Of a DNA stretch of 64,000 bases, positions 15,682 through 52,019 are shown piece by piece. Source of the stretch: Alphaproteobacteria bacterium. GTDB taxonomy: Bacteria > Pseudomonadota > Alphaproteobacteria > Micropepsales > Micropepsaceae. Position 1 is the first letter of the stretch; the number at the start of each line of letters is the position of its first letter. A program made the translations under genes and the position numbers. The stretch covers positions 769,226 to 833,225 of the forward strand of contig JAFKEU010000004.1 in assembly GCA_017308475.1 (NCBI GenBank), read 5' to 3'. The notes under the pieces are model-generated. The model was not told the DNA's origin. It worked only from the letters and a program-made list of their open reading frames with translations, and ran no database searches.

Positions 15682-15711
15682 TGTCATGGCCCGCGAAAGC
15701 GGGCCACCCAG
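15682..15711. repeat. REP-like palindrome, family A, left arm of the GIY-YIG cassette
   Basis: Thirty bases, stem GGCCCGC-GAAA-GCGGGCC with flanks TGTCAT and ACCCAG. It is a perfect inverted repeat of 16023-16052. The bases immediately following, AGGTGATAT, end at the ATG of the GIY-YIG gene, so the repeat edge provides its Shine-Dalgarno sequence (AGGTGA). Confidence 0.92.
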
Positions 15712-15718
15712 GTGATAT

Positions 15719-16012
15719 ATGCCGGGTGCCTATTACGTCTACATCCTGGCCAGCAAGCACAACGGCACCCTCTACATTGGCGTCACCAACGACCTGGCAC
15801 GCCGCATCTGGGAGCATCGTGAGGGCCTGGCCGAGGGCTTTACGAAGAAATATGACGTCAAGCGGCTGGTCCATTTCGAAGTCTTTGACAATATCAATGA
15901 CGCGATCCATCGTGAAACACGGCTGAAGAAATGGAAGCGGCAGTGGAAAATCGATTTGATCCAGTCCCGCAACCTGCTCTGGGACGATCTGTACGAAAGC
16001 CTCAAGGGATAG
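15719..16012 (+). CDS. Single-domain GIY-YIG nuclease
   Basis: 97 residues, the GIY-YIG fold alone. Motifs: YYVYILASKHNGTLYIGVTNDL (the Y-x-Y and Y-I-G strands), RRIWEHREG (catalytic Arg), then a His/Tyr stretch, and the late RETRLKKWKR helix, all standard for the small alphaproteobacterial GIY-YIG proteins of unknown role. It is framed by perfect 30 bp inverted repeats and inserted between the substrate-binding and ATPase genes of an ABC importer, so it looks like a cassette rather than part of the operon. Confidence 0.9.
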   Translation: MPGAYYVYILASKHNGTLYIGVTNDLARRIWEHREGLAEGFTKKYDVKRLVHFEVFDNINDAIHRETRLKKWKRQWKIDLIQSRNLLWDDLYESLKG

Positions 16013-16022
16013 CCGCTTTCAA

Positions 16023-16052
16023 CTGGGTGGCCCGCTTTCGCGGGCCATGACA
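16023..16052. repeat. REP-like palindrome, family A, right arm of the GIY-YIG cassette
   Basis: Exact reverse complement of 15682-15711. It lies 10 bp after the GIY-YIG stop and 10 bp before the TTG start of the ABC ATPase, whose GGGGGG ribosome-binding stretch follows the repeat directly. Confidence 0.92.
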
Positions 16053-22541: not shown

Positions 22542-23711
22542 ATGAACGCTCCTGTCCGCCCCGCCGCGATGCCGCATTTCGCCACCATCGCCAAGGCAAT
22601 CGAGACGTTGAAGCCCACCGAACCCTTGTACCTGCTGTTCCCGGACAGATTTCGCACGGCGGCGAAACGGTTCCTGGACGGATTTCCGGGCGACGCGCTT
22701 TATGCGGTCAAGGCCAATCCCAGCATCCAGGCACTGGACCAGATCTGGGCGGCGGGCGTGCGCCATTTCGATACCGCCAGCCTGGGGGAGATCGAGCTGG
22801 TCAAGAACCGCTTTGCCGATGCGATCTGCCACTTCATGACCCCGGTGCGCATGCCGGGCGCCGCCAGGGTCGCGTTCGGGAAATACGGCGTCACCGACTA
22901 TGTGGTCGATTGCGACGCCTCGCTGGACAAGCTTCTGGCCGAAGTGCCAGAGGCGAAAAAGCTGCGCATCTTCGTGCGCGTCGCCACCCCGCTGGGCGGG
23001 GCGATCCTGGAACTGTCCAGCAAGTTCGGCACCACCCCCGCAGAGGCCGCGCGCCTGCTCAAGCGCGTGGCCAAGACCGGCGCCGCCCCCGCGCTGACCA
23101 TGCATGTGGGATCGCAGAGCCTGTCGCCCTTCACCTATGCACAGGCGATCGAGATGGCGCGCCGCACCGCCAACATGGCAAAGGTGCCGCTGGCGGCGCT
23201 GGATGTGGGCGGCGGCTTTCCCGGTCCCTATCTTGGCAACGACGTGCCGCCCTATCACTGGTATTTCGACACCATCCGCGAGTCCGTGGCGCAGATGGAC
23301 AATCCCGACATCCCGCTTCTGTGCGAGCCCGGCCGCGCCCTGTGTGCCGAGGGCATGGGCCTTGTCACGCTGGTGGTGCTGGCCAAGGGCGCCAGCCTCT
23401 ACATGAACGACGGCACCTATGGCAGCTTCGACGAACTGACCCTGCCGGGCTGGACCGGCGATTATCCGGTCAGCGCCTGGCGCCTGGACGCCAAGGGCGT
23501 CGCGCAGAAGCTGGAAGGCACGCCCAAACCCTTCCGCGTTTTCGGTCCCACCTGCGACACGCTGGATGTGCTGCCGCGCCCCGTGGTGTTGCCGCAGCAG
23601 ACCGGCGACGGCGACTTTTTGCTGTGGGAGGCGATGGGGGCATATTCGGTGGCCGTGCGCACAACCTTCAACGGCTTTTATCCGGATAGTTGGGCCGTCA
23701 TCGGCGATTGA
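22542..23711 (+). CDS. Ornithine decarboxylase, group IV PLP enzyme (alanine-racemase fold)
   Basis: 389 residues. PLP-binding lysine in ALYAVKANP (near residue 51), HVGSQS motif, GGGFPGPY phosphate loop, CEPGRALCAEG, and the catalytic Cys in GPTCDTLDVL, the eukaryote-like ODC arrangement. It makes putrescine from ornithine; lysine as an extra substrate is possible. The ATG at 22542 has GAGGGGAG 6-8 bases upstream; the longer open frame from 22323 is not needed. Its last five codons are part of a 92 bp tandem duplication. Confidence 0.9.
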   Translation: MNAPVRPAAMPHFATIAKAIETLKPTEPLYLLFPDRFRTAAKRFLDGFPGDALYAVKANPSIQALDQIWAAGVRHFDTASLGEIELVKNRFADAICHFMTPVRMPGAARVAFGKYGVTDYVVDCDASLDKLLAEVPEAKKLRIFVRVATPLGGAILELSSKFGTTPAEAARLLKRVAKTGAAPALTMHVGSQSLSPFTYAQAIEMARRTANMAKVPLAALDVGGGFPGPYLGNDVPPYHWYFDTIRESVAQMDNPDIPLLCEPGRALCAEGMGLVTLVVLAKGASLYMNDGTYGSFDELTLPGWTGDYPVSAWRLDAKGVAQKLEGTPKPFRVFGPTCDTLDVLPRPVVLPQQTGDGDFLLWEAMGAYSVAVRTTFNGFYPDSWAVIGD

Positions 23712-23899
23712 GGCTTGCTGCCCGCTTCGCGGGCGTTCGGCCGGGCGAAAGCTCCACCGGAGCTTTCGCTGATCCGTCCTCACGGGCCGTCATCGGCGAT
23801 TGAGGCTTGCTGCCCGCTTCGCGGGCGTTCGGCCGGGCGAAAGCTCCACCGGAGCTTTCGCTGATCCGTCCTCACAGGCCGTCATCGGCGACTGAGGCT
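23694..23899. repeat. 92 bp tandem repeat, two full copies and a partial third
   Basis: Copies begin at 23694, 23786 and 23878, a spacing of exactly 92 bp. Each unit starts with the last codons and stop of the ornithine decarboxylase gene (AVIGD-stop), then contains a GCCCGC-TTC-GCGGGC hairpin and a perfect GCGAAAGCTCC-ACC-GGAGCTTTCGC hairpin. Copies 1 and 2 are identical until the last bases; copy 3 stops after about 22 bases. The second hairpin is probably the gene's terminator, present twice. Confidence 0.95.
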
Positions 23900-34729: not shown

Positions 34730-34790
34730 GTCCCCACTCCTTTTCCGGCCCGCCGGGCCCCTTCGACGGCGCCTTTGTGCCGCATGGAGG

Positions 34791-34823
34791 ACAATTATCC
34801 CAATTACGTAGTTGACACCACAA
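34791..34823. repeat. Left end of the IS1595 element: 8 bp target duplication and 25 bp terminal repeat
   Basis: ACAATTAT (34791-34798) is the target duplication. The terminal repeat 34799-34823 begins CCCAATTACGTAGTTG and ends CACCACAA. It is a perfect inverted copy of 37409-37433. Confidence 0.97.
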
Positions 34824-37408: not shown

Positions 37409-37441
37409 TTGTGGTGTCAACTACGTAATTGGGACAATTAT
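37409..37441. repeat. Right end of the IS1595 element: 25 bp terminal repeat and target duplication
   Basis: 37409-37433 is the exact reverse complement of 34799-34823. ACAATTAT at 37434-37441 repeats the left target duplication. Confidence 0.97.
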
Positions 37442-37670
37442 CCTATATCCCCAATCAGGGAGGATAGGAATATCGACTTTAGCGTGTGGAGCGAGAGAAA
37501 ATATGCTTAAGAGAAAAGGATTTATCTCTTAGAAAAATATTTCGTGCCCCGTGGGATAGGCGCATTTTCCCGCATTGACAGCGTAAATCCATACGGTTGG
37601 CTGTTGAACCGGGATCATACTATAGGTTGTGGGACTATAGTCGTAACCTGGCCATGCTAGGCCGGCACTG
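37442..37670. other. Intergenic region right of the IS1595 element
   Basis: 229 bp, AT-richer than most of the window. Before insertion it was contiguous with the promoter region of the DnaA-domain-IV-like gene. I see no gene, and no clear terminator. Confidence 0.5.
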
Positions 37671-49456: not shown

Positions 49457-50083
49457 TTAAGGCATGCGCCTTTGCAGCAACTCACAAGCAGCCTCATCAA
49501 TCTTTTTTAGTCCAGCTTCAATCGCTTCAACCTTTTGGTTGACATCGCTCAGCGTCAACTCATTGCGTATGAGCATAAAGGAATGGGCAATGCTGCCCCT
49601 GCGGCCACCAAATGCGTGCAAGTCATTCATCAAAGCCAAGTCGAAAGTTTCTGGGTCAATTCCAATAGGCAGCAATAGGGCTTTTTGATTGTCTTCGGTC
49701 ACTCCGTGATTTTCATTGATCACGTGTCGAAATCGTTTCAAGGCCTCATCAGAGAAAACGTCCAAATTTGATACCAACTCCTGCGAGAGTTTCTTCTTAG
49801 CCTTTTCTGGCAAATCCCCAATTAACTTTGAGGCCACCAGTGAAACGAGAGAAAAGCAAATTGTCCCGCTATCCTTAAAAAGCTTACGCGCATCAAGCGC
49901 CACGGCCCAGGATATCGCTTCCAGATATTCTTCCATGGCGGCGTGAGCGAAAAGAACAAAAGACTGAACTTTAAGATGTTGCAGCGAAGTATTCGATTTT
50001 TCAATCGGAACACCCCTCACTAAGAGGCGGGCATCGACGAGAGCGCGCTCGAAAGAAATGAAATATTGAGTGGGCGTTTCCAT
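49457..50083 (-). CDS. HEPN-like protein in an AT-rich accessory patch
   Basis: 208 residues from the ATG at 50083, with GAGGG upstream. All-helical. VQSFVLFAHAAMEEYLEAISWAVA resembles the first helix of HEPN domains, and RRGSIAHSF holds an R-x4-H pair as in HEPN RNase sites. GC content is far below the host average. It lies 7 bp after a DUF262-like remnant. HEPN/DUF262 neighbours occur in defence-type islands, so a toxin or antiviral nuclease is possible, but the assignment is tentative. Confidence 0.55.
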   Translation of the reverse strand: METPTQYFISFERALVDARLLVRGVPIEKSNTSLQHLKVQSFVLFAHAAMEEYLEAISWAVALDARKLFKDSGTICFSLVSLVASKLIGDLPEKAKKKLSQELVSNLDVFSDEALKRFRHVINENHGVTEDNQKALLLPIGIDPETFDLALMNDLHAFGGRRGSIAHSFMLIRNELTLSDVNQKVEAIEAGLKKIDEAACELLQRRMP

Positions 50084-50090
50084 ATCGCCC

Positions 50091-50635
50091 TCAATTTTCG
50101 CGGCCCAGTTCAAAAGGTGGATTTACGTCCAGATGGGACACTCGCCTAATTTTTTTGAACCAAGTAACGAACCTCTTATTCACCGCCTCCTTGCTCTTTG
50201 TGGTTGTTTCGAGCGACGCCAGAAATTCACGGTCGTCCCGACAAAGATTTACGAACGCGCCTTTGAAAGTGGCCTTGTTCGCTAGTGCCCACTTTTTAAT
50301 TGCAGGGACAGCTAAGGAACTGATTTGAATATCGAACACTGCCCGATTAAATCTGGTATCAAATTGCCCACCCTTCCACTTACGGCAGACGTTTTGAATT
50401 CCGAAAATATCAATGGCAGCCCCAATCGATCCCTCCATGTCTTCGATATCGCCAAGAATCTGCTTCTTTATTGGTGCATCAGAAAATTTAGCATTTAGAC
50501 TTTTCGTAATATCATCGAGAAATTGCTTTAGATTACCTGGATAGGCCGCTCCATTTCGCTTAGTTTGATCTTGGATGCCGTTGAAACCGACTTCTTTTTC
50601 ACAACCATCCCAGCCCCCATTTGAACAAGATACAT
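50091..50635 (-). pseudogene. DUF262-like C-terminal remnant, likely frameshifted
   Basis: The frame from about 50540 down to 50091 codes for a segment resembling the C-terminal domain of DUF262 proteins (GSIGAAIDIFG, VCRKW, DTRFNRAVFDIQISSLA, FVNLCRDDREFL, NKRFVTWFKKI). No good start exists in that frame. In another frame, ATGs at 50635-50607 open a lysine-rich stretch (MVVKKKSVSTASKIKLSEMERP) that stops at 50528, suggesting one frameshift near 50530-50560. The ParB-like catalytic N-terminus is absent. AT-rich and followed by the HEPN-like gene. Confidence 0.5.
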
Positions 50636-50729
50636 ATAGTATCTTGATTGTGGTGCGCGCCAAGAGGGTTGCGAGATTCCGGAGACACAATACTTATCTG
50701 CATCGTCCGCGCTTTGGCGGCGCGCTGCC

Positions 50730-50811
50730 CCCCTCACCCGTCCTGTCGCGCGACGCGCGACAGGACACCCTCTCCCACAAGGGGGAGAGGGGAAGGTCGC
50801 GCCTCGAACCC
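50730..50811. repeat. Family C palindromic repeat, copy 1
   Basis: CCCCTCACCCG, then a perfect inner palindrome (TCCTGTCGCG-CGAC-GCGCGACAGGA), CACCCTCTCCCACAAGGG, GGGAGAGGGGAAGGTCGCGCC and a tail. The outer boxes are identical in plan to copies 2 and 3, the inner stem is different. Confidence 0.85.
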
Positions 50812-50903
50812 GCAGGGGGAGCGGGGAAAACCGGATGCGCATTGCCGAACACACGCCGGTCCCCCGCATCATTCGCCAATGTCCGAGAGTTCGCTGGAAA
50901 TCC

Positions 50904-50964
50904 CTCTCCCCTTGTGGGAGAGGGTGGCATATCGAGCGTCAGCGAGATATGCCGGGTGAGGGGT
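50904..50964. repeat. Family C palindromic repeat, copy 2 (reverse orientation, left of the DUF559 gene)
   Basis: Read on the plus strand: CTCTCCCCTTGTGGGAGAGG, GTGGC, inner stem GCATATC...GATATGC, GCCGGGTGAGGGGT. It is the inverted partner of copy 3. Its end GAGGGG lies 5 bases before the GTG start of the DUF559 gene and can act as its Shine-Dalgarno. Confidence 0.9.
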
Positions 50965-50968
50965 AGCG

Positions 50969-51307
50969 GTGAAACACGATTTTGCCCGCCGCTTGCGGCG
51001 CGAACAAACCGATGTGGAGCGCAAGCTCTGGCTTGCGCTGAGAGCCCGCCGCTTCCATCGCGCGAAATTCCGCCGCCAGCAGCCCATCGGTGCCTACATC
51101 GTGGATTTCGTCAGCTTCGAAGCCGGGCTGGTGGTCGAACTTGACGGGGACCAGCATGGTTCCGAAGACGGCCTGGCCTATGATGCCAAGCGGACGCAGG
51201 CGCTGGAGCGCGACGGCTTTCGGGTTCTTCGCTTTCCAAACCACGAAGTGAATCAGAATTTCGATGGCGTGCTGGAGGCGATTGCGCGGGCTTTGGGAAT
51301 AGGCTGA
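50969..51307 (+). CDS. DUF559 (Vsr-like PD-(D/E)XK) nuclease
   Basis: 112 residues. Pattern of the small DUF559 family: ARRLRREQTDVERKLWLALRARRF, FRRQQPIGAYIVDFVSFEAGLVVELDGDQH (the catalytic Asp/Glu positions of a Vsr/PD-(D/E)XK fold), AYDAKRTQALERDGFRVLRF. The GTG start at 50969 lies at the edge of a repeat. Inverted copies of that repeat enclose the whole gene (50904-50964 and from 51309), with the right copy beginning 2 bp after the stop. Biological role unknown. Confidence 0.88.
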   Translation: MKHDFARRLRREQTDVERKLWLALRARRFHRAKFRRQQPIGAYIVDFVSFEAGLVVELDGDQHGSEDGLAYDAKRTQALERDGFRVLRFPNHEVNQNFDGVLEAIARALGIG

Positions 51308-51308
51308 C

Positions 51309-51390
51309 ACCCCTCACCCGGCGCGGGCGCTCGCGCGCCCGCGCCACCCTCTCCCACAAGGGGAGAGGGGAAGGTCGCGCCTCGAACCCC
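51309..51390. repeat. Family C palindromic repeat, copy 3 (forward, right of the DUF559 gene)
   Basis: ACCCCTCACCCGGC, an inner palindrome of GCGGGCGC/GCGCCCGC type, GCCACCCTCTCCCACAAGGGG, AGAGGGGAAGGTCGCGCCTCG. Forms the inverted partner of copy 2. Confidence 0.9.
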
Positions 51391-51458
51391 ACAAGGGAAG
51401 AGGGAAACACAGAACCCGCCCGGTTGACTCCCCCGCCCCGCGCGCGCGTGATGGCGCG

Positions 51459-51713: not shown

Positions 51714-52019
51714 GGCGCATATCCACCTGTCTCTCCACACGCCCCCGTGCCAGCATCGGCGGATGATGATGGCGGAAGAGGACGCATCGCAAAATCACAA
51801 CCGCCCGCCGGTTGCGCCGTTGCTGGACAGGCGCTGTCCGACAAGGGGGAGGGGGCGGAAAATTGCGCCCCAAAACCGCCGCGGCAAACCGGCAAATCCG
51901 CCCCCGCCCCTGTGGCATAGGCCGATGGGGAAAGGCCGCCCCATTTGACCGCGGACAAGACAAGCCCCGGCAAATCAGGCTACCCAGTCCCCGTGCCCTC
52001 CAGGACCCTTGGCCCACGC
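51714..52019. other. Intergenic region before the ExoD gene
   Basis: 306 bp without a convincing gene. There is a short open frame from 51688, but its codon pattern is poor. It may hold the exoD promoter; no terminator or repeat was recognised. If exoD starts at the TTG on 51945 the gap is shorter. Confidence 0.45.

Follow-up and report, generated by a model that had tools for sequence, protein, structure and literature searches.

Recognized in E. coli from the 1990s onward, the short repeat known as BoxC, TM_ECO or PIT was reported in 2015 to form an intrastrand triplex and to be widespread (PMC4666352). According to those parts of that report on which we draw, the motif occurs 3610 times in 262 proteobacterial genomes, the triplex was shown in vitro for the E. 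coli form, counts vary from strain to strain (1 and 29 are examples), and MG1655 holds five inverted pairs, each consisting of one type A and one type B copy. The same parts state that E. coli PIT elements showed neither promoter nor terminator activity in published tests and that no transposase or integrase remnants lie in the context of BoxC, and they leave mechanism and origin open. Part of the literature on DUF559, a protein family to which E. coli YcjD belongs, points toward DNA repair: the YcjD profile detects Vsr (PMC1189080), and Caulobacter VsrA, a DUF559 protein, causes SOS induction in the absence of ScmA methylation and is a proposed very short patch (VSP) repair enzyme (PMC12907096). 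Here we describe a locus at which repeat and protein family stand together: a DUF559 gene (50969-51307) lying between inverted BoxC-like repeats in a stretch of 64,000 nt of alphaproteobacterial (Micropepsaceae) DNA, referred to below as the window.

The DUF559 gene of the window and its repeats

The gene, on the plus strand and with a GTG start, encodes a YcjD/Vsr-like, PD-(D/E)XK-type nuclease of 112 amino acids and matches PF04480 (DUF559) over its full length (E 4.2e-40; 136.4 bits against a cut-off of 20.6; residues 3-109 of 112). After DUF559 itself, the nearest folds are the homing endonuclease catalytic domain and Vsr. E57, D59, H63, R75, R88 and five other residues are invariant in 43 DUF559 sequences, with D46 nearly so; these conserved residues are the putative catalytic ones. 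The gene is free-standing and intergenic, its product has no PADLOC match at E <= 0.001, and a Pfam scan of five neighbouring proteins finds no methyltransferase among them.

Read on the C-rich strand, each repeat element consists of a tail with CCCTCACCC, a variable hairpin 1 and a hairpin 2 of the form CCCTCTCCC-loop-GGGAGAGGG. The left element (50902-50964, minus strand) has its hairpin 2 at 50902-50924, its hairpin 1 at about 50926-50953 and its tail (GGGTGAGGGGT) at 50954-50964, next to the gene. The right element (51309-51369, plus strand) begins 2 nt past the stop codon with the tail ACCCCTCACCC (51309-51319), followed by hairpin 1 (about 51320-51345) and hairpin 2 (51347-51369). The 27-nt core arms (50902-50928 and 51343-51369) are 100% complementary, as are the 14-nt arms at 50951-50964 and 51309-51322. 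The tails of both elements face the gene, and the inner end of the left element therefore gives GAGGGG (50958-50963, plus strand) 5 nt before the start codon, in the position of a Shine-Dalgarno sequence and possibly used as such by the ribosome. A third element lies upstream (50730-50791, plus strand) and forms a tail-outward inverted pair with the left one. Both plus-strand elements have continuations (50792-50829 for the third, 51370-51407 for the right) that resemble one another, 51360-51407 being 83% identical with 50782-50829. The first-pass annotation, made from the letters of the window, had already described the gene between inverted repeat copies, the third copy, the GAGGGG motif and the spacing after the stop codon, and all of this is borne out. 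Its assignment of the repeat to a separate family needs amending: the repeat does differ from the one that accompanies a GIY-YIG gene of the same window, but it is not new, being a variant of the published BoxC/PIT/TM family.

CCCTCTCCC occurs six times in the window, always at the DUF559 cassette, where 0.88 occurrences are expected and none of 100 shuffles reached six. The exact core palindrome (two 9-nt arms) is found at five places in the 3.45-Mb genome, three of them at the DUF559 gene, a count that does not translate into a probability, since the copies cluster; with an arm one base shorter there are seven places. All five exact copies fold as a single-stranded tail followed by hairpin 1 and hairpin 2. 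The sequence of hairpin 1 varies from copy to copy, with its self-complementarity mostly kept (20-26 positions in spacers of 27-44 nt), which is what selection on the fold, rather than on the sequence, would leave. The genome has a second DUF559 gene (L002, G000:C13:294535-297852), flanked by a distinct element subfamily of the CCCTCCCC type, and a third, degenerate paralogue (L003) with no flanking element. The semiSWEET-ExoD gene pair is kept in G289, where the upstream neighbourhood differs, so that it offers no clean empty site for the window cassette.

How general the association is

Small nuclease genes had been predicted to be enriched beside such repeats, and that check was run on 77 DUF559 loci from 59 genomes (our own grouping; the loci are not independent). 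The detector looks within 220 nt of the gene for hairpins with a C/T-rich stem of at least 7 and a loop of 3-12. It finds one on at least one side of 71 of the 77 loci and of 10 of 298 neighbour open reading frames (ORFs), and on both sides of 46 loci and of no neighbour ORF. A second detector is blind to composition: it scores the local match between the upstream flank and the reverse complement of the downstream flank, the latter counted from where the homology match stops, because repeats may extend into the 3' part of the ORF. At a threshold score of at least 16, 34 of 59 DUF559 loci and 1 of 377 neighbour ORFs have inverted flanks; the degenerate paralogue L003 was kept in this test, as a negative, and the partial homologues L037-L042 (score 7-9) were left out. 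The corresponding control for direct repeats gives 18 of 59 and 3 of 377; at some of the genes, doublets or tandem elements stand on each side.

A search of genome contigs yielded 34 loci encoding DUF559 relatives. Among the 28 near full length, a hairpin is present on at least one side in 26 and on both in 18, and their hosts are labelled in the records as Alpha-, Beta-, Gamma- and Deltaproteobacteria, Spirochaetes, Gastranaerophilales, Chloroflexi, Ignavibacteria and Bacteroidota (nearly all metagenome-assembled genomes). By eye, an element is seen on at least one side in eight more records, from E. coli, Azospirillum, Sinorhizobium, Shinella, Deinococcus and a phage scaffold. A scripted reading of tail direction at the 46 two-sided loci has the tails facing the gene in 24, pointing away from it in 4 and mixed or undecided in 18; tails-inward and tails-outward layouts of the cassette both occur. 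Repeat-associated nuclease cassettes, put forward at the outset as a general principle in alphaproteobacterial genomes, thus stand as one, and extend beyond that class.

The same repeat-gene-inverted repeat form had been claimed for two nuclease folds, and small GIY-YIG genes do share it: 14 of 23 usable loci have inverted flanks at a score of at least 16 (30 loci were fetched and seven skipped as too short; the neighbour-ORF control comes from the DUF559 loci only). The example in the window (15682-16052) is a GIY-YIG gene (15719-16012; PF01541, E 8e-18) between 34-nt inverted repeats beginning TGTCATGGCCCGC, 97% complementary. By eye, its neighbours are genes for a substrate-binding-like and an ATP-binding ABC transporter-like protein.

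Occurrence of gene and palindrome was also compared over 289 alphaproteobacterial species genomes, with a statistic that takes no account of kinship. DUF559 was scored as full length at E <= 1e-25, and a genome as palindrome-rich when it had at least three exact palindromes on the forward strand. By these cut-offs DUF559 is present in 67 of the 289 genomes, 54 are palindrome-rich and 43 are both (odds ratio 34, p 7.4e-24); the link holds at 3 Mb and above (odds ratio 20.9) and below that size (38.4). The reversed palindrome pattern is absent from most genomes and reaches single digits at most. Fewer than three copies of the one palindrome counted are found in 24 DUF559 genomes, as is to be expected wherever the element belongs to another subfamily.

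Each gene with its own repeat variant

Genomes with several DUF559 genes allow the match between a gene's two flanks to be compared with that between flanks of different genes. G012 has ten DUF559 matches, of which nine were fetched; eight are near full length and have elements, the ninth (L110) being partial and without. When the upstream and downstream flanks of the eight paralogues are paired in all 40320 possible permutations, the true arrangement ranks first, and the own partner is the single best in seven; the exception, L105, fits the partner of L103 slightly better. In G239, with five paralogues, the true pairing is the best of 120 permutations and the own partner is best in all five. 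Over all 77 loci, the own-pair flank score averages 22.9 against 10.4 with shuffled partners (the maximum of 5000 shuffles being 12.7), and the own partner is the single best in 31. Protein similarity also predicts element similarity between genomes (r 0.29, equalled in none of 5000 permutations). Only crossed flanks were compared, and therefore neighbouring genes cannot contribute to this correlation.

Dispersed doublets and whole cassettes

Elements of the same type are dispersed elsewhere in genomes. Ten stretches read in G263 comprise seven tail-outward inverted doublets, two tail-inward inverted pairs and one single hairpin, and a query with one doublet matched 39 other places among those listed, 36 of the matches covering almost all of its roughly 106 bp. 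The gap that holds a doublet in G263 measures 230 nt there and 92 nt in the relative G349. (The orthologous gap of G347 was set aside as an empty site, its upstream match being weak at 64%.) At the same orthologous gap, where G263 has its DUF559-type doublet (L172), a different repeat, starting GTCATCCCC, is present in the relative G037 (L173, G037:C13).

Whole cassettes can be followed in Deinococcus. On a plasmid of strain NW-56, hpaE and an oxidoreductase gene are separated by a DUF559 gene. In the three relatives read (D. deserti, D. ficus and D. proteolyticus), hpaE and the oxidoreductase gene share a 4-nt overlap, and no repeat is seen at this closed junction. D. proteolyticus carries its own DUF559 gene elsewhere in the operon, where hpaB meets the oxidoreductase gene. 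Its cassette has inverted ends, among them an outer arm that is perfect over at least 15 nt, and the tails point outward, as in a doublet with the gene inside. Both junctions are closed in relatives.

E. coli ycjD and BoxC

In E. coli the DUF559 gene ycjD lies between sapF and fabI, with an element of the short-spacer form downstream; this form agrees with TM_ECO as published (earlier names BoxC and PIT element). The DNA of the window cassette itself has no match in the E. coli collection. In an evenly spread set of 60 of the 5393 matching E. coli records, not controlled for lineage, further matching places number 11-27 (median 18) in the 37 that have ycjD and 1-16 (median 4) in the 23 that lack it (p 4.8e-9). 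Records that lack ycjD keep elements, and the gene is therefore not needed for their persistence. A query spanning sapF-ycjD-fabI has no place covered to at least 80% in 2013 of 5375 matching E. coli genomes; the two such genomes that were read (L211, L212) have an efflux gene cluster beside sapF instead.

Individual element sites are polymorphic. The gap between recA and recX is occupied in 1623 of 5375 E. coli genomes (those covering at least 80% of the query), and in three other genomes read it has 16 nt in place of about 190. At ypfG-tkt (L216/L220) two strains have identical flanks of 223 and 252 nt, between which one has a BoxC-type element and the other a different sequence; nrdA-nrdB (L215/L221) shows the same kind of swap between near-identical flanks. 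E. coli element sites, then, change by replacement. The other allele at these last two sites we take to be of the repetitive extragenic palindromic (REP) or bacterial interspersed mosaic element (BIME) type, and the two repeat families seemingly compete for the same sites.

A probable two-part cassette and its alternatives

On balance we think it probable that the DUF559 gene and its inverted BoxC-like repeats make up a two-part cassette, in which the nuclease is predicted to recognize the repeat subfamily that goes with it as its substrate and likely drives the spread of that repeat. The protein would cut or nick the folded element (its hairpins or, possibly, an intrastrand triplex of the BoxC type) or its target, and repair would then copy the element into intergenic sites, replacing the prior sequence in the manner of homing and without target duplication. 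The process would probably be cut-and-repair copying by a homing-type PD-(D/E)XK nuclease, a partnership like that of REP elements with the REP-associated tyrosine transposase (RAYT), with an unrelated, homing-endonuclease-like fold.

Several observations weigh against such a cassette. No hairpin is detected at six of the 77 DUF559 loci, and at 25 more it is confined to one side; the partial homologues L037-L042 (from Planctomycetes, Verrucomicrobia, Comamonadaceae and Binataceae) and the degenerate L003 have no inverted flanks, nor, by eye, has the partial G012 locus L110. The correlation of protein with element similarity is modest, and 11 of the 54 palindrome-rich genomes are without a full-length DUF559. 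In E. coli the element nearest ycjD of MG1655 is degenerate, none is seen upstream of the gene, and the strict hairpin detector finds none in the ycjD flanks of KE47; ycjD-negative records keep up to 16 matching places, O157:H7 and others a dozen or more. No target-site duplication is seen at recA-recX, ypfG-tkt or nrdA-nrdB, where the alleles are replacements, and no clear one at the two Deinococcus cassettes, where the flanks are too diverged to exclude short ones. Finally, the one piece of bench work on a DUF559 protein that we came across, that on Caulobacter VsrA (PMC12907096), points to mismatch repair.

The last point belongs to an explanation in which DUF559 is a Vsr-type mismatch-repair nuclease and the repeats are tolerated nearby, or the gene moved once together with flanking repeats. 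The Vsr-like fold, the detection of Vsr by the YcjD profile and the SOS role and proposed VSP repair function of VsrA, as given in the portions of those papers cited above, speak for it. It leaves unexplained the inverted repeats on both sides of so many DUF559 genes and of no neighbour ORF, the paralogue-specific repeats and the co-occurrence over genomes, and the window gene has no methyltransferase among its five scanned neighbours; we consider it unlikely, if still in contention. Somewhat less unlikely, if still doubtful, is the converse of the cassette, with the elements as target and not passenger: a free-standing homing-type DUF559 gene would enter or adjoin pre-existing BoxC-like repeats that were spread otherwise. 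That its fold is nearest, after DUF559, to the homing endonuclease domain and Vsr is in keeping with this, and so are the tails that face the gene in just over half of the two-sided loci, as if it lay between two doublets, and the complete doublets on both sides of the L112 gene. Set against these, the pairing of paralogues with their own partners and the tracking of element by protein mean that gene and repeat travel or evolve together; the closed hpaE-oxidoreductase junction of Deinococcus lacks a repeat in the relatives read; and just two of the five exact palindromes of the window genome are away from the gene.

Strong hairpins close to gene ends might suggest terminators or mRNA stability elements at the ends of operons, with small mobile-type genes landing in the same gaps. 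Neighbour ORFs, with a hairpin on either side in 10 of 298 cases and on both in none, make this very improbable, as do the inversion of the elements, their dispersal as doublets, their absence from an orthologous gap, the other repeats of the small GIY-YIG genes looked at and, as far as the cited part of PMC4666352 reports it, the lack of promoter and terminator activity of E. coli PIT elements. That the hairpins merely reflect the composition of GC-rich genomes, in which C/G-rich ones would abound and to which many of the hosts belong, is scarcely credible: the reversed pattern is all but missing from the same genomes, neighbour ORFs of the same loci serve as the control, and AT-rich hosts such as Gastranaerophilales (L019, L027) have the same flanks.

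If the two-part cassette is real, BoxC, an orphan repeat for decades, gains its missing engine, and a partnership of repeat and nuclease has been built without an HUH transposase. DUF559, widespread and according to Pfam still of unknown function, would be offered a role, and a partner nuclease makes the question of the origin of BoxC testable in K-12, where both parts exist. We suggest more tentatively, and with rather less than even confidence, that there may be a second and independent REPIN-like world, in which the BoxC/PIT/triplex repeats from E. coli to Deinococcus would be non-autonomous copies of a one-gene homing element, its nuclease recognizing its own folded repeat and spreading it by cut-and-repair replacement. 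A third system would be built on GIY-YIG nucleases; unrelated folds would then, each for itself, have taken over a palindromic repeat that replicates throughout the genome.

Other features of the window

Beside the DUF559 cassette, and between it and uvrB, lie two minus-strand genes, possibly a defence pair: one (49457-50113) encodes a RiboL-PSP-HEPN protein (E 3.9e-13), the other (50091-50690) an NsnA-like protein (PADLOC E 2e-11). Another repeat, at 51816-51885, recurs with 82-84% identity over about 42-67 nt at four further sites in the genome (G000 contigs C5, C13, C9 and C8). Farther away are a perfect 92-bp tandem duplication (23692-23875, copies 100% identical) and 36-nt inverted repeats (34788-34823 and 37409-37444) that are 94% complementary. 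Separated by 2.6 kb and richer in A and T than the background, these repeats are possibly the ends of an insertion sequence.

Comparison with known systems

Repeat and protein family were each already known; their pairing was not found in the open-access literature searched. No open-access paper linking DUF559 or YcjD to BoxC or to palindromic repeats turned up in the portions of text that the search covered, subscription papers and preprints being outside its scope.

The window protein is a full member of the DUF559/YcjD/VsrA proteins (PF04480; PDB 3hrl). Homing endonucleases of the I-Bth0305I type (PDB 3r3p) sit in introns; the window protein is instead a lone 112-amino acid domain in an intergenic cassette, and its gene is encoded in neither intron nor intein.

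The order CCCTCNCCC, second CCCTCNCCC, loop, GGGNGAGGG, which is the reverse complement of the published BoxC/TM_ECO pattern, occurs in all three window copies, with a hairpin loop of 3-6 nt. Inverted pairs of two spacer types and a patchy copy number among strains are common to both. The 3-nt spacer that BoxC/TM_ECO has between its first and second C blocks is replaced in the window copies by a self-complementary hairpin of 27-29 nt; other DUF559 elements, such as L026 and L102, have short spacers, and the window copies are therefore a variant form. BoxC/TM_ECO has no mobility gene in its context, according to the consulted part of PMC4666352; here a nuclease gene is the partner.

Small GIY-YIG genes with GTCATGGCCCGC-type repeats, such as that at 15719-16012 of the window, have the same cassette form with an unrelated fold and an unrelated repeat. 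In way of working the nearest system is that of REPIN and RAYT (TnpA-REP). As far as the relevant part of PMC3733652 describes it, it has in common with the DUF559 cassette short palindromes in inverted pairs and a single nuclease gene flanked by inverted copies, and inverted doublets are dispersed in the genome in both (read in G263 rather than in the window genome). The DUF559 elements have no GTAG tail, and membership fails because their nuclease is not an HUH tyrosine enzyme but a PD-(D/E)XK, Vsr-like one.
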